Shown here: piece by piece, positions 4,201 to 48,112 of the stretch | How the letters are laid out: every line of letters begins with the position of its first letter | Position numbering within the stretch: position 1 is the first letter of the stretch | Virus record (IMG/VR): IMGVR_UViG_3300025699_000009 | Coordinates: 1-60,737 of that record | Direction: 5' to 3' (one strand) | DNA from: a virus | Length of the DNA: 60,737 nucleotides | Made by a program: the position numbers and the translations under genes | Notes under the pieces: model-generated | What the model was told of the DNA's origin: nothing | The model's input: the letters and a program-made list of their open reading frames with translations, nothing else | Databases searched by the model: none

Positions 4201-7200
4201 CAAGCGCGCTTGGCTTCATGTTGTACACCAAGGTATAGTTACCCTTGGCTGCGCCTATGATTATCTTCTTAGCTGAAGCCTCGTCAATCGATGCCCATGC
4301 TGCCTTACCGAAGACACCCTCCTGCAGTGGGAAGAACGGGCCACCCATACGCTGAGAGTCAACCTTGAGTTGGTCAGCCATAGCAAGGTTGATGTCTTGT
4401 CCCACCAACTCTGACAGTGGTATACGCGCTATCTTAGCGACAAGCTCTTGGTTCTCAGTAACCAAGATTGGAACCGTCGCCATGGTCGGTGCTTCTACAT
4501 CAAAATCATTTTCGGCAAGCTCAGGACTCACCTCGTTCATCAGGTCGATAGCCTGCTGCACCTCCTCCGAGGTAGCGAGAGAACCATCAGTAGTTGCCTC
4601 AAGCATGAACTGACGAGTCGGCGAGGTAGCTTGGTCATACTTAAGAACCCTTGTTGGCGTAGTGTATCCTGCAGGCACCTTCTGACGTCCTATAGCACCC
4701 CCGGCTGCGCTCGGCAAAGTCTCAATAACATACTTGTTCTTTTCTGCAAGAGCTTCTTTAATCAACGCCTTCTGAGCGCGGTCAAGCGGAGTGGCAGAGA
4801 TAAACGTGGTGGCGATATATCCGGGACGGTTACCCGTATCTAGCACTGAACCCTCTTCATACAGGGTGTAGTAATAGACACCATCCACCTGCTTTTCTTT
4901 GAAGGTGGTTTTTTGCTCTCTTCCACGTTGTATGTCAAGGGCCATGGGGTCAAAATTTGCATCAACCCCCGGTGGCATTACCTTGGTGCCCGTCATGGTG
5001 AATGCTTCTAAACCATTTCGATTGCCAAACACTGCAAACCTTCCGGCTCGAATAGGAGCCATCATTCGTTCCTTATCAGCGGAGGCTCGCTCTTCAGGGC
5101 TGCGCCTAGTCTCTTGCTCTTGCATTGCCGCAAGGCGACGAGCTTTACCTGCAGACCATTTATTGATAGCTCGACCATAAGCTTCTTGTGATGCAAAGTC
5201 TGACTCTTGCAACGGGAACTGCTCTGCTTGTATCTCTTCAACTGTATTCCCTTCTTGTCTAGATGCCAAAAGCTCCGCCTCAATTTCCGTGTTTGTCTGC
5301 TCAGGGGCGGGGGTTTGAACCCCCGCTTCAGCGGTTGCTGTGGTTTCGTCCACTGCTACCTCCGCCGCAGGCTGTGTTTCTTCTACCGTAGCTTCAGCCG
5401 CTTCGCTCTCGGCTAACACCACCTTGTCAACACGTCGTTGCAATGCAATCTGTTCCGATGTGGACAGCCCACGCTTATCCGCTGCTTTCGTTGCCTTGGT
5501 CAGCGCACGACCTACTGCGGCGAGCTTAGCTCTTTCAGAACGGGTACGGTTAGAAGGCTCCTTCTCCTCAATAGCTTCAATCTCTGCACTCCGCATACGA
5601 CGTAGCCACTTAAAGTATAGCTCTGCGAGCGGGTCAGTCAGGGCTATCTCCTCCTGAGTAGCCGTCTCCTCTACCACGGCAGGTGCTGTTTCCTCTACTA
5701 CCTCAGCTTCCGGGGTAGGGCTAATGCTTTCTACATCTACGCCCGCCAACGTAGCTATACGCTGTAGCTGTTCGGGCGTAGCAGGCGTTCGCCCATCAGG
5801 ACGGAAAAATTTTGGAAGCGGCTTCCCTTGCTTGACGTTTCGGGAAGCTAAGAAAATCTTACGCTCTTCCTGAATAGCTTCTATCTCAGCAGCTTCCTGC
5901 TCTTTTAATGTTTCGAGCGCAGCCGTTTTAGCAGGAGAATCTACGCGCCTTTTAATTTTTGCTCGCTCTCTTTTGTATTTGCCCTTGGCTTCCGATACTT
6001 CCCTTTCTCGTGCGTTGATGTTAAGGGTCATAATATCTACGTCCATCTCACCTTCCGCGACAGGCTCAGGAGCTACCTCCTCAACGGCTGCTTCTTCTAC
6101 TGCCTCAACAGGTGGAGCAAACAACCCTTCATCAACGGCAAGCTCCTCGGAAAGAGCATCGGCCTCTGCCGCCACGTCCTGCTCCTGAGAAGAGAGTACC
6201 TCTTGTTGGAACTTGGTAAGCTTCTTACCTGCGGTTTGTCGAGCTTCAATACCTGCGACGATACCATCAAGGCGGGCAGGGTCAATGGTTCCGTTTCTAA
6301 ACGCAGTTACGTCCGACCGAACGGGTCGGTCGATTACTTCTACTTGCGCTTCTTCTTCAACCGTCGCTTCTGCAGCTTCGTCTTGGGCTTCAATCGGTTG
6401 GGTAGTTTCCCCTGATTCGGGTACTCCTTCTCCCACTTCTGCGCTATCTCCGGATGGTTCGCGTGTAGGAACTTCCTCTGTGCTTGGCTCTTGAATGGCA
6501 TCTTCTTCTACTACTGTGGTTTGAATGTCCGTGTTGGCATCCGCTGCGGCCTCTGCCACGGTCGGCTCAGCATTTATCTTTTCAACAAGAAGTGCTGATG
6601 TCTCAGGGTCATTCTTTACCTGTGAATTTCTTTGGAGTCGTCGCAGTGCGAGCGGGCCTGCGCTCTCAACATACGAAACAAATTCCTCCTTTGTCATGTA
6701 CTGCTTGCCCACCCTGTAGGAAGCTACACCCTGACGGCTAAAGCCTACAATATTCAGGGCATCGAGATTGATAGGGGCTTCGGGTATCTTTCCTGTCTCT
6801 GCTATCATTCGTATCTCCTCATTGATAGCCTTGATAGTTCCTCGGAATACTTCCGCACGGTTACTTGTAGAGGACAGCCCCTCGCGAACTGCCATAAGCT
6901 CCATGAGGCGGGTGCGCTCTTTAGTCTTTCCATCAAGCGCACGACCTATGCTTCCGCTTGGAGATGTAACCTCTAACAGGTCATTGGCCTCTCTTCGAAG
7001 AGCCATGTTTTCAAGGATGCGCTGCCCCTGCTCAGCGGTAATCTTTCCTAAGCGGGTCATGTTATCCGTCCATCGCTGTATCTGAGTATCGCTTGAACCA
7101 TCCTCAGCCATCTTAACAACGTCCATCAGCTCGTTGGCAATACGTTGGTTGTTGTTGCCAAGCGTTGACTTCGCGATGTTCATAGAAGCATTGATGGTTT

Positions 7201-22322: not shown

Positions 22323-22348
22323 AGGGTGGGGGTTTGAACCCCCACCCT
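22323..22348 (-). terminator. Hairpin copy 2 with U-tract: terminator after capsid gene
   Basis: The minus strand has a perfect 10-bp stem (AGGGTGGGGG / CCCCCACCCT) with loop TTCAAA, starting 7 nt after the capsid stop codon and followed by eight T residues. It is the only hairpin copy with a full T-tract, so here it should act as an intrinsic terminator or attenuator. Confidence 0.8.
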
Positions 22349-44016: not shown

Positions 44017-44048
44017 TTGTGTAATAGACATTAATTACACTATATTTG
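44017..44048 (+). promoter_or_regulatory. First early promoter
   Basis: TTG at 44017-44019, a 21-nt spacer containing AATAGACATTAATTACAC, then TATATTTG at 44041-44048. It matches the Bacteroidota consensus and resembles the promoters at 46137 and 48081. It drives the gene at 44102. Confidence 0.8.
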
Positions 44049-44101: not shown

Positions 44102-44770
44102 ATGTTTAACAACTTAAACGAACTCGAAGTAGCATACTTCACAGCCTTCAACGCAAACGGCACTACGCTTGCAAAGTTCTACACTGCTCAGAAGAGCATC
44201 AAGAAATCAGGAGACGCAGTCTTCGAGAAGCGCATCAAGCTATGGCATCAGGTTGACTCGCTGTGGACAGCATTCAACTCCGACGAGGAGAAAGCACGAC
44301 GAGCGGAAGCAGGCATCACGATGACATCAACTGACTTCTCAAAGAAAGTGCTTGGATATAAAGACAGAAGCATGAAAAACTCCATCCTTCGTGCTGTGAA
44401 TAGCATCAATGACAACAGCGATTTGATGACAGCCTACAAGCGTGAGATGACTCGTCTCGGCAAGGGACGTTCGCTCAAGGGATTCAATGCCTTTGCGAAG
44501 CAGGTTGAAGCGCAGGTCTCCAAGGGAGCTACCACAGATGAAGCGGCAGAAGCTACTGCTGATGCAATTGCTACTGCTGATGCTGTTTCCTGCATCGCTC
44601 AACTGCAGTTCTTCGGTCTGCAGAGCGGACGTGTCGCACTCAAGGAGGACGGCACATTCGATTTCACTTCGGTGAACCTACAGCAGGCTGTTGAAGGTGC
44701 GAAGAGTTTTTACGAGCTACTTGCGGCAGAAGCAGTGCGACAGCTCAACGAGCAAGCTCCTGCAATCTAA
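44102..44770 (+). CDS. Unknown early protein (222 aa)
   Basis: A mostly helical protein (MFNNLNELEVAYFTAFNANG), with a polar middle (DLMTAYKREMTRLGKGRSLK) and an Ala/Thr-rich helix (residues 140-165). No signal peptide, membrane segment or known motif. It is first behind the strongest early promoter with an ATCTCTCACATC leader, and ends at the hairpin and hammerhead 1. Early position suggests host takeover or anti-defence, but that is only a guess. Confidence 0.75.
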   Translation: MFNNLNELEVAYFTAFNANGTTLAKFYTAQKSIKKSGDAVFEKRIKLWHQVDSLWTAFNSDEEKARRAEAGITMTSTDFSKKVLGYKDRSMKNSILRAVNSINDNSDLMTAYKREMTRLGKGRSLKGFNAFAKQVEAQVSKGATTDEAAEATADAIATADAVSCIAQLQFFGLQSGRVALKEDGTFDFTSVNLQQAVEGAKSFYELLAAEAVRQLNEQAPAI

Positions 44771-44790
44771 GTGGGGGTTCAAACCCCCAC
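44771..44790 (+). repeat. Dispersed hairpin, copy 5
   Basis: GTGGGGGTTCAAACCCCCAC begins immediately after the TAA at 44768-44770 and ends 3 nt before hammerhead 1. No T-tract follows, so it is more likely an mRNA 3'-end protector than a classical terminator. Confidence 0.85.
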
Positions 44791-44793
44791 TCA

Positions 44794-44843
44794 GTTACAC
44801 TGACGAGACCTGAATGGTCGAAACGCTGTGAAGCGTCTGTAAC
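44794..44843 (+). ncRNA. Hammerhead ribozyme 1 (type I)
   Basis: Stem I is GTTACA (44794-44799) with TGTAAC (44838-44843). The core CTGACGA (44800-44806) matches CUGANGA. Stem II is GACC-TGAAT-GGTC (44807-44819), followed by GAAA (44820-44823). Stem III is CGCT-GTGA-AGCG (44824-44835), then T and C complete the GUC site. Predicted cleavage is after C44837. All conserved core bases are present and all three stems pair perfectly. The open stem is stem I. Cleavage would leave a 24-nt leader before the ATG at 44862. Confidence 0.93.
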
Positions 44844-44861
44844 AAATCTAATCTCTCTCTC

Positions 44862-44933
44862 ATGACTCCTGAAAACCTCTACAGAATCTCAACCGCTATC
44901 CTTTGGATTGCATTTATACTCTCTCAGCTATGA
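44862..44933 (+). CDS. Small leader ORF with hydrophobic helix (23 aa)
   Basis: MTPENLYRISTAILWIAFIL is followed by SQL and a TGA that overlaps the amidoligase ATG (ATGA at 44930-44933). The CT-repeat leader AATCTCTCTCTC lies directly before this ATG rather than before the amidoligase ATG. It may be a small membrane protein or a leader peptide coupling translation of the amidoligase. Confidence 0.6.
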   Translation: MTPENLYRISTAILWIAFILSQL

Positions 44934-45907
44934 TTAACTACACAACAGATTCTAACAGCTACCGAGGCACCCTGATGGGCTACCATGGTTCTCCTGCTCC
45001 GCAGGACTTCCGCTCCGGTGCATCCGTATCGGATATCGCAGGCTTGCGTCCTGTAGACCGAGCATCCCTCAAGCAGGTCAGCCTGACGGAGATTGGTGCT
45101 AAGTACGGCATCGGATTCGAAATCGAGAAGACATCCTTCGCTCGCAATGCGATGAAGGCCATGCCATTGTTCGCAGGGTACGAGCGTGACTCATCCTGTG
45201 GGTATGAAGCAGTGACCAACATCCTGCCTTTGCTCCCTGCATCGGAATGGCGCAACAAGGTGTACTCCATGTTCCATCAGGCGGAGCGCATCTTGGATGA
45301 CCAATGGTCACCATCCAACCAACGCTGTGGTGGCCACATCACCCTATCCTGTGACGGCATGAATGGAGGTGAATTGATGGAGCACATCCGTCCGTACTGC
45401 GGCATCCTACTCTCGCTCTATCGCAGACGATTGAAGAACAGCTACTGCTCTCGCAATCCAAACCTGCGCTTGGCGCATGAAGTTGAGAGTGCGCTTGGCG
45501 GAATCGCTTCGAAGTACAATGTTGCCAAGGTGATGAGTCATGGGGTTGAGTTCCGCCTTCCATCTCGCGTTCGCTCGGTGAGCGACATGAAGCGCAGGTA
45601 CGAGCTGATGTACGTCTTGGTTGACTGCGCTCGCCAATCGTTCGAAGGCAATGCACCGACATGGGCGAAGGCGATGTCACGCATCAAGCCAATCGTCTCA
45701 CTCATGTACCGAGACGAAGCGAAGGAGCAGAAGATTCTATCTCTCGCCAAGGATATGCAGAAGTTCATCAACACCGGCAAGATGGAATTCTCAGTGCTCC
45801 CATTCATCGACCCGTATGCAGAGACTGCATCATCCTTCAGGACGCGACGATGCAACCGACTGATTGCGCAGGGTGAGCGAGCTTACTACAGCGAGTCGCG
45901 ATGGTGA
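44930..45907 (+). CDS. GS-fold amidoligase (COOH-NH2 ligase-like, 325 aa)
   Basis: Motifs of the amidoligase_2/glutamine-synthetase-like fold in order: GIGFEIEK at 60-67 (metal-binding ExE), RDSSCGYEAVT at 86-96, CGGHITLS at 133-140 and GVEFRLPSR at 205-213. The family, described in phages with glutamine amidotransferase and AIG2-like partners, is predicted to form amide bonds between carboxylates and amines using ATP. The matching GATase-cyclotransferase fusion lies 2.2 kb downstream. The ATG at 44930 is chosen because of the ATGA overlap; a TTG at 44903 is possible. The gene is bracketed by hammerhead ribozymes. Its substrate (cell wall, peptide or protein) is unknown. Confidence 0.75.
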   Translation: MINYTTDSNSYRGTLMGYHGSPAPQDFRSGASVSDIAGLRPVDRASLKQVSLTEIGAKYGIGFEIEKTSFARNAMKAMPLFAGYERDSSCGYEAVTNILPLLPASEWRNKVYSMFHQAERILDDQWSPSNQRCGGHITLSCDGMNGGELMEHIRPYCGILLSLYRRRLKNSYCSRNPNLRLAHEVESALGGIASKYNVAKVMSHGVEFRLPSRVRSVSDMKRRYELMYVLVDCARQSFEGNAPTWAKAMSRIKPIVSLMYRDEAKEQKILSLAKDMQKFINTGKMEFSVLPFIDPYAETASSFRTRRCNRLIAQGERAYYSESRW

Positions 45908-45915
45908 GACCTTTG

Positions 45916-45937
45916 GGTGGGGGTTCAAACCCCCACC
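45916..45937 (+). repeat. Dispersed hairpin, copy 6
   Basis: Arms GGTGGGGG / CCCCCACC with TTCAAA loop, 8 nt after the amidoligase stop and directly touching stem III of hammerhead 2. After ribozyme cleavage the mRNA would end 7 nt beyond this hairpin. Confidence 0.85.
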
Positions 45938-45990
45938 TGCTGTCGGGCGATGTGCATCGCTCCTGATGAGTCCGAAAGGACGAAACAGCA
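45938..45990 (+). ncRNA. Hammerhead ribozyme 2 (type III)
   Basis: Stem III is TGCTGT (45938-45943) with ACAGCA (45985-45990). The GTC site is cleaved after C45944. Stem I is a hairpin, GGGCGAT with ATCGCTC (45945-45951, 45956-45962; one G-T pair). The core CTGATGA lies at 45963-45969. Stem II is GTCC-GAAA-GGAC (45970-45981), and GAAA spans 45982-45985. This is a textbook hammerhead with an open stem III. It would release the 3' end of the amidoligase mRNA. Confidence 0.96.
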
Positions 45991-46006
45991 AACCAACAAA
46001 CGGGTG

Positions 46007-46117
46007 ATGGCCTACCATCGAAACGTCATGAACAATATCGAATCACAAGTCAAGTGGGTTTTCCGAATTGCCATTGCATTCCTCTTCCTTGCCGCGTACC
46101 TAACATCAGGCTGTTAA
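46007..46117 (+). CDS. Small membrane protein (36 aa)
   Basis: MAYHRNVMNNIESQVKWVFR precedes a hydrophobic helix IAIAFLFLAAYLTSGC. An internal ATG at 46028 gives a 29-aa version. It lies between hammerhead 2 and the next promoter, so it would be on the 3' ribozyme fragment unless another promoter exists. Upstream extension is only translated hairpin and ribozyme sequence. Confidence 0.45.
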   Translation: MAYHRNVMNNIESQVKWVFRIAIAFLFLAAYLTSGC

Positions 46118-46136: not shown

Positions 46137-46168
46137 TTTGGAATTAGACATTCATTGCACTATATTTG
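46137..46168 (+). promoter_or_regulatory. Early promoter before 46217
   Basis: TTTG at 46137-46140, then GAATTAGACATTCATTGCAC (20 nt), then TATATTTG at 46161-46168. Nearly identical to the promoter at 48081-48112. Confidence 0.85.
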
Positions 46169-48080: not shown

Positions 48081-48112
48081 TTTGGAATTAGACATCTTTT
48101 GTACTATCTTTG
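48081..48112 (+). promoter_or_regulatory. Early promoter before GATase-GGCT gene
   Basis: TTTG (48081-48084), GAATTAGACATCTTTTGTAC (20 nt), TATCTTTG (48105-48112). Same GAATTAGACAT extension as the promoter at 46137. It is 31 nt before the start at 48144. Confidence 0.85.

Follow-up and report, generated by a model that had tools for sequence, protein, structure and literature searches.

Most phage loci homologous to the amidoligase-fold gene studied here keep a type III hammerhead ribozyme, usually with a hairpin, shortly behind the gene, and in the virus record analyzed here (IMG/VR, 60.7 kb; the whole stretch is termed the window) a type I hammerhead lies in front of the gene as well (Table 1). 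Both hammerheads, HH1 upstream and HH2 downstream, are probably active self-cleaving ribozymes that would serve as operon punctuation, providing hairpin-protected 3′ ends without termination.

Table 1. Features of the amidoligase locus in the window, and tRNA-like minihelices in homologous loci (L numbers)
Feature	Position	Strand	Remarks
Promoter-like sequence TTGTGTAATAGACATTAATTACACTATATTTG	44017–44048	+	Resembles exact copies of TTTGGAATTAGACATNNNTTGNACTATNTTTG at 46137 and 48081
222-aa gene, upstream cistron	44102–44770	+	ORF
Hairpin AGTGGGGGTTCAAACCCCCACT, 9 bp	44770–44791	+	Ends 2 nt before HH1
HH1, type I hammerhead ribozyme	44794–44843	+	Predicted cut after C44837; RF00163 match, fold, compensatory changes
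24-nt 5′ leader of excised RNA	44838–44861	+	5′-OH expected; identical leader in L002 and L003
23-codon leader ORF	44862–44933	+	Overlaps amidoligase start (ATGA)
Amidoligase-fold gene, 325 aa	44930–45907	+	ORF, AlphaFold model, Foldseek
Hairpin GGGTGGGGGTTCAAACCCCCACCT	45915–45938	+	Abuts HH2 stem III; would cap mRNA 3′ end
HH2, type III hammerhead ribozyme	45937–45991	+	Predicted cut after C45944; RF00008 match, covariation
36-codon small ORF, membrane-peptide-like	46007–46117	+	3′ of HH2; absent in L002 and L003
Promoter-like sequence, start of next transcription unit	46137–46168	+	Exact TTTGGAATTAGACATNNNTTGNACTATNTTTG copy
tRNA-like minihelices	L432: 4094–4139; L436: 3103–3148; L414: 3858–3901		Just after amidoligase stop
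tRNA-like minihelices	L445, L470		Just after amidoligase stop

HH1 has the CUGANGA/GAAA/NUH core of a type I hammerhead (CUGACGA...GAAA...GUC), three stems of 6 bp (I), 4 bp (II), and 4–5 bp (III, with a GNRA-type loop), and its open end in stem I. HH2 combines the hammerhead core (CUGAUGA/GAAA/GUC) and a stem I of 7–8 bp with an open end in stem III, as in type III. The minimum-free-energy fold of each is the hammerhead fold. Searched against all 4227 Rfam families, the two match RF00163 (HH1: 31.9 bits, E 5.2e-4) and RF00008 (HH2: 45.7 bits, E 7.9e-7) end to end, just below the curated cut-offs of 34 and 48.5 bits, and would therefore be missed by routine annotation. The RF00163 cut-off is an Rfam threshold, not a structural feature, and despite the lower score membership of HH1 in the type I hammerheads is supported by its E-value and by covariation. 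HH2 scores 72.6 bits against the family covariance model R1, HH2 itself being among the R1 sequences. These results bear out the initial annotation, which had placed two hammerheads around the gene and proposed the Rfam covariance search: both cores are intact, and folds and E-values agree.

At Rfam gathering thresholds the window gives no match, and the E-value mode of Rfam, a core-and-stem scanner, and R1 were needed. A strict scan for the core and three stems (60.7 kb, both strands, three permutations) finds HH1 and HH2 only, and the same scan of 60 dinucleotide-preserving shuffles gives three matches in total, or 0.05 per window. A chance origin of the two motifs is rejected by these shuffles and by the related phages described below. 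Five further families matched the window by E-value (L20 leader, STnc390, sR32, BSnc120, and ST7-OT4_3); these were discarded as chance or as matches to the repeated hairpin. Only one in 50 related records exceeds the RF00008 cut-off, which explains why the family has remained unannotated.

The window belongs to a phage whose terminase is 72% identical to that of MW202828, an uncultured podovirus from Manatee Spring, and 45% identical to those of Flavobacterium Elemovirus phages; the remaining matches are to Cellulophaga, Tenacibaculum, and Maribacter phages. Given these matches, the host of the window phage is likely a member of the Bacteroidota. The promoter-like repeat TTTGGAATTAGACATNNNTTGNACTATNTTTG, which we take to be of the Bacteroidota −33/−7 type, is present exactly at 46137–46168 and 48081–48112 and as a diverged copy at 44017–44048; this last site is the probable start of a transcript crossing both ribozymes. 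The first gene behind it, the 222-aa cistron, has no match in Pfam or PHROGs, and its homologs sit 5′ of the amidoligase gene in relatives. A pyrimidine tract, TCTCTCTC, lies a few bases 5′ of the ATG of three genes in the window (44852, 46205, and 46925; 0.22 expected by chance) and may mark translation starts if the host does not use Shine-Dalgarno sequences.

The name amidoligase, as first assigned, is supported at superfamily level (GCS/glutamine synthetase-like) by predicted fold and not by Pfam, where no amidoligase match was obtained even at E 5. It holds at that level because the AlphaFold model (pLDDT 92.9) matches both the superfamily and viral models: Foldseek aligns it with glutamine synthetase, YbdK, and PafA (probability 0.97–1.00 to glutamine synthetase and YbdK), with low TM scores (0.3) for matches in the PDB, and with viral models labeled “amidoligase enzyme” (E 1e-7). 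PHROG 2443, of the same label, is matched weakly (E 0.014) and below profile threshold in two of 11 homologs. The further description as an “early gene” can be read from gene position only. A search of 50,697 phage records for the amidoligase gene returned MW202828 only, which has no hammerheads. In L359, a neighboring gene that is also followed by a hammerhead encodes a GGACT + GATase protein, which suggests a cassette for γ-glutamyl or amide chemistry.

The predicted cuts would release an RNA of 1107 nt around the amidoligase-fold gene, and the leader, leader ORF, and 3′ hairpin that the initial annotation ascribed to it are all found in the sequence. The leader ORF is present in L004 and deleted in L002 and L003, two of the three closest relatives; it is therefore not essential and not part of the conserved unit. 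Membrane-peptide-like small ORFs lie immediately 3′ of each hammerhead in the window, and L002 and L003 have neither.

Both hammerheads are retained in L002 and L003 (amidoligase identity 91–92%) and in L004 (72%), and in L019 (50%) two hammerheads again surround the gene, the upstream one being type III, not type I. In close relatives GUCC/GGAC replaces GACC/GGUC in stem II of HH1, and CGUC/GACG replaces CGCU/AGCG in stem III, with pairing kept in both. Stem II of HH2 is GUCC/GGAC in the window and GACUC/GAGUC in L004, where one additional base also follows A9, reportedly the position of an extra base in a viroid hammerhead. That a viroid hammerhead has an extra core base is ascribed to De la Pena and Flores 2001 in the review PMC6155905. 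The core of L004 HH1 carries a U-to-C change (CUGA to CCGA, giving CCGAUGA) that may slow or abolish the ribozyme. The initial annotation had named relatives devoid of core bases at both sites as evidence that would count against it; one distant relative, MW202828 (~40% identity), is of this kind, keeping the gene and having plain GTGTCGTTAACGACAC hairpins and neither hammerhead.

The association of hammerhead and gene extends well beyond these phages. When IMG/VR was scanned for type III hammerheads by DNA pattern, with no use of protein, the gene before the hammerhead was often an amidoligase homolog (38–92% identity). Because the viral pattern scan also holds chance matches, counts were taken from a set of 97 homologous loci, including the window, chosen by protein alone (about 40–92% identity). 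A type III hammerhead lies within about 0.1 kb 3′ of the stop codon in 81 of them (~85%; in L399 the script placed the stop codon too far downstream, and correct placement would give 82). The loci come from related phages that swap modules and hence are not independent; the fairer count is by cluster (90% identity across the final 300 nt), where 63 of 78 have the downstream hammerhead. A similar pattern scan of genome contigs gave 118 stretches, nearly all by chance, the sole real hairpin and hammerhead being L272 from a Cytophagales MAG.

A ribozyme is also present directly 5′ of the gene in only 16 of the 97 loci, all among the 81 with a downstream hammerhead. The conserved unit is therefore the 3′-end hairpin and hammerhead; bracketing on both sides, which had initially been singled out as unusual, is a minority outcome. 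The same counts bear on the possibility, touched on in the initial annotation, that both cuts serve to circularize the amidoligase RNA with the help of a host RtcB-type ligase. Hammerhead ends (5′-OH and 2′,3′-cyclic phosphate) would suit RtcB, and the joined junction would hold no complete hammerhead and so could not be recut, but most relatives have no upstream cut and would be unable to circularize, and Perreault et al. sought spliced or circular products of phage hammerhead arrays and found none. Circularization is for the former reason not favored, and we regard it as very improbable.

R1 was built from 38 gap-free modules of the first batch of loci; standard pairs fill 98.7% of their 608 pair cells. 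Cells with a double change number 170, where shuffles give 50.8 ± 5.7, and the covariation score reaches 0.752, compared with 0.229; when partners are slid by one to three columns, at most 47% are paired. Applied to a second batch, R1 found hammerheads (52–79 bits), and 15 of the 17 loci there have one 3′ of the gene; the contig of one locus, L489, had already been seen. All 120 R1 matches in the first batch and the window are on the coding strand, as are all 61 places found with RF00008 at E 1e-4 in 50 whole records, which fall between −1.3 and +6.0 kb from the end of the amidoligase gene. The type III relatives share a conserved loop I of the GUGUGU/GUGAGU type and a conserved loop II of the AAAA/GAAA type.

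The geometry of the module is equally constrained. Among 43 distinct modules the predicted cut falls 27–74 nt after the stop codon (median about 38), a hairpin of at least 6 bp stands beside stem III in 41, with a spacing of 0 in 33, and the length is exactly equal in 38, with no aptamer-like insertion. Among the 96 type III hammerheads of the broader, pattern-derived set, 42 are accompanied by a hairpin of at least 8 bp, versus 16 of 619 random positions. Hairpin stems differ by phage (GTGTC, GGGGG, GAGAG, GTCCG, and others), each being genome-specific and repeated, and a UUCAAA-like loop is often shared. What the sequences show directly is the presence of both hammerhead motifs, the covariation of their stems, their bias to one strand, their fixed geometry, and their conserved association with the amidoligase family.

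Promoter-like sites are found 5′ of the gene in two of 95 loci, which is rarer than in control windows (28 of 361), and 3′ of it in six of 93; a T-run of at least six follows the hairpin site in four of 97. The scarcity of both argues that the module lies inside an operon that is probably read through, and speaks against the hairpin as an intrinsic terminator. No U-run follows the hairpin beside HH1 or that beside HH2 in the window sequence, and intrinsic termination at either was rejected on this ground. Near-palindromic copies of the hairpin, GTGGGGGTTCAAACCCCCAC, occur without a hammerhead at window positions 5307, 22326, 33071, 43806, 46899, 48026, and 53265; that at 22326 (minus strand) is followed by a long U-run, unlike the hammerhead-linked copies. 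As hairpins of this family are also found at gene ends without any hammerhead, they may serve a separate function.

In the mechanism we propose, RNA polymerase would start 5′ of the 222-aa gene and read through both ribozymes, each of which would cut co-transcriptionally just 3′ of its hairpin. The upstream cistron would gain a defined 3′ end, a 2′,3′-cyclic phosphate near a stable hairpin expected to block 3′-to-5′ exonucleases, and the downstream cistron a 5′-OH end. After a type III cut the upstream mRNA would end in the hairpin plus about 6 nt and the downstream 5′-OH would be the first base of stem I, so that both new ends would lie against a helix. The type I cut at HH1 would leave the amidoligase mRNA with a short, open 24-nt leader. 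The selected unit would be the hairpin and type III hammerhead behind the amidoligase gene, and a second ribozyme in front, as in the window, would yield a monocistronic amidoligase mRNA of 1107 nt. Cleavage in vivo, RNA stabilization, and uncoupled expression are the inferred parts of this mechanism. The processing of a polycistronic RNA into a message with a hairpin-protected 3′ end, as initially suggested, is supported as a reading of the sequence.

Engineered hammerheads in untranslated regions usually lower expression, and the hammerheads could instead be mainly negative or conditional regulators that tune the gene behind them and do not protect the one before, through decay of the exposed downstream mRNA or through gating by a metabolite or protein. 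The 5′-OH product would have an exposed new 5′ end, and a position linked to an enzyme gene would suit feedback. However, the conserved neighbor is the upstream gene, while the downstream gene varies; the conserved additional element, the hairpin, is on the upstream side; and the modules, mostly of one exact length, show no aptamer-like insertion. A regulatory role is therefore improbable in our judgment.

The 16 loci scored by the script as lacking a downstream hammerhead are informative as to what may take its place. A tRNA-like minihelix occupies the site in eight of these versus none of the 81 loci with the hammerhead (P 9e-8), against a scan background of seven in 391 control windows (1.8%); L380 and L391 have a similar minihelix counted by eye only, which would raise eight loci to 10. 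These elements comprise an acceptor stem and T-arm, mostly with no anticodon arm. L432, L436, and L445 share the order hairpin, 7-bp acceptor-like stem, 6-bp T-arm, and UUCGANU loop, and the L432 sequence folds exactly in this way. ARAGORN called no tRNA in the first-batch examples (L414, L432, and L436). The minihelices are possible substrates for RNase P/Z, their cleavage being supposed. L431 has a twister-P3 ribozyme (2883–2960; 61.8 bits, above the Rfam cut-off) directly 5′ of the amidoligase gene; in a twister search of 50 related records it was the only one, and twister is therefore a rare substitute. L372 and L378 have in common, within 90 nt of the amidoligase stop and in the place of the hammerhead, a structure (CCTC..CAGAAACGG..GAGG ATTTGGTGGTAGAAAC) that has no Rfam match and might be a further cutting element. 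In about five loci the site holds neither hammerhead nor tRNA-like element; together with MW202828 these indicate that cleavage is not essential there.

These substitutions also bear on whether the hairpin and hammerhead cassettes are selfish or passively spreading modules, or recombination joints, of no benefit to the phage. Near-identical HH2 modules occur in the otherwise divergent genomes of L004 and L019, gene content 3′ of the module varies among relatives, and the repeated, genome-specific hairpin stems would also fit such an origin. Against this stand the near-complete pairing maintained through heavy compensatory change, the strict specificity for strand, gene, and spacing, and the replacement of the hammerhead by another ribozyme permutation, by twister (L431, 5′), or by a tRNA-like element (3′), all of which point to selection on cleavage at these places. 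Passive spread is in our view unlikely. Returning to self-cleaving operon punctuation, a broader form of it can be put forward, which we hold at slightly under even odds: in this lineage (Elemovirus relatives) the 3′ ends of amidoligase-operon mRNAs would be made by cleavage, not termination, with interchangeable cutters beside a phage-specific hairpin. The cutters would be type III or type I hammerheads, twister, or a tRNA-like minihelix that host RNase P/Z would cleave, and the conserved principle would be a cut beside a hairpin and not one particular ribozyme.

Several known systems offer partial parallels. RNase III processes the early polycistronic mRNA of phage T7 between genes, and the 3′ ends lie in a hairpin. 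The likeness is a polycistronic RNA cut between genes with hairpin 3′ ends; the difference is that a host protein cuts there, whereas here the RNA would cut itself. The glmS ribozyme, located in a bacterial mRNA 5′ leader, is likewise a natural self-cleaving ribozyme, but needs a metabolite, while the phage motif is intercistronic, of constant length, and has no aptamer. The tRNA-like 3′-end processing of MALAT1 and NEAT1 uses RNase P and RNase Z. A tRNA-like fold directs 3′-end maturation of these RNAs (PMC12941219). The system resembles the tRNA-like replacement of the hammerhead in L432, L436, and L445; it differs in that the phage element is a minihelix not called by ARAGORN, is absent from the window, and has its cleavage supposed. 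With Rfam RF00008 and RF00163 the phage hammerheads share equal core and stems and full-length model matches, the difference being that the phage family falls almost throughout below the curated cut-off.

That a gene is bracketed by hammerheads had initially been put forward as unusual, but this was already reported for prophages by Perreault et al. 2011 (PMC3088659), who described clustered hammerheads flanking single genes, among them ardA of Agrobacterium tumefaciens, Clostridium scindens, and Azorhizobium, and proposed processing into gene-length mRNAs. Those arrays cleave in vitro, and one also in E. coli (PMC3088659). The window shares with them several same-strand hammerheads in a polycistronic phage RNA that flank single genes. 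It differs in that the flanked genes there were said not to be constant, whereas here one family keeps the downstream hammerhead, and in that the hairpin is built against stem III at fixed spacing. The supporting information of that study lists the phage PaP3, in which the core-and-stem scanner gave no hammerhead. Hammerheads flanking phage genes, the processing idea, and array cleavage are thus known; new are the gene-linked module of hairpin and hammerhead, how widely it extends, and the tRNA-like elements that apparently replace it. In the open-access literature, which the search covered, we found no paper that joins hammerheads with an amidoligase.

A review (PMC6155905) names the biological role of phage and bacterial hammerheads as a question still to be answered. 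One ribozyme architecture tied to one gene family, strand, spacing, and hairpin in dozens of phages, with strong covariation and natural replacement by other cutting elements, turns a vague idea, possible phage mRNA processing by hammerheads, into a specific and testable model, self-cleaving 3′-end formation, for a phage hammerhead family that Rfam cut-offs hide. The compact module could also provide a termination-free 3′-end part for Bacteroidota expression tools. Finally, pattern scans revealed tandem same-strand hammerheads, four or five in number and of mixed types (I, III, and some II), in L107, L118, L176, L184, L212, and L217.
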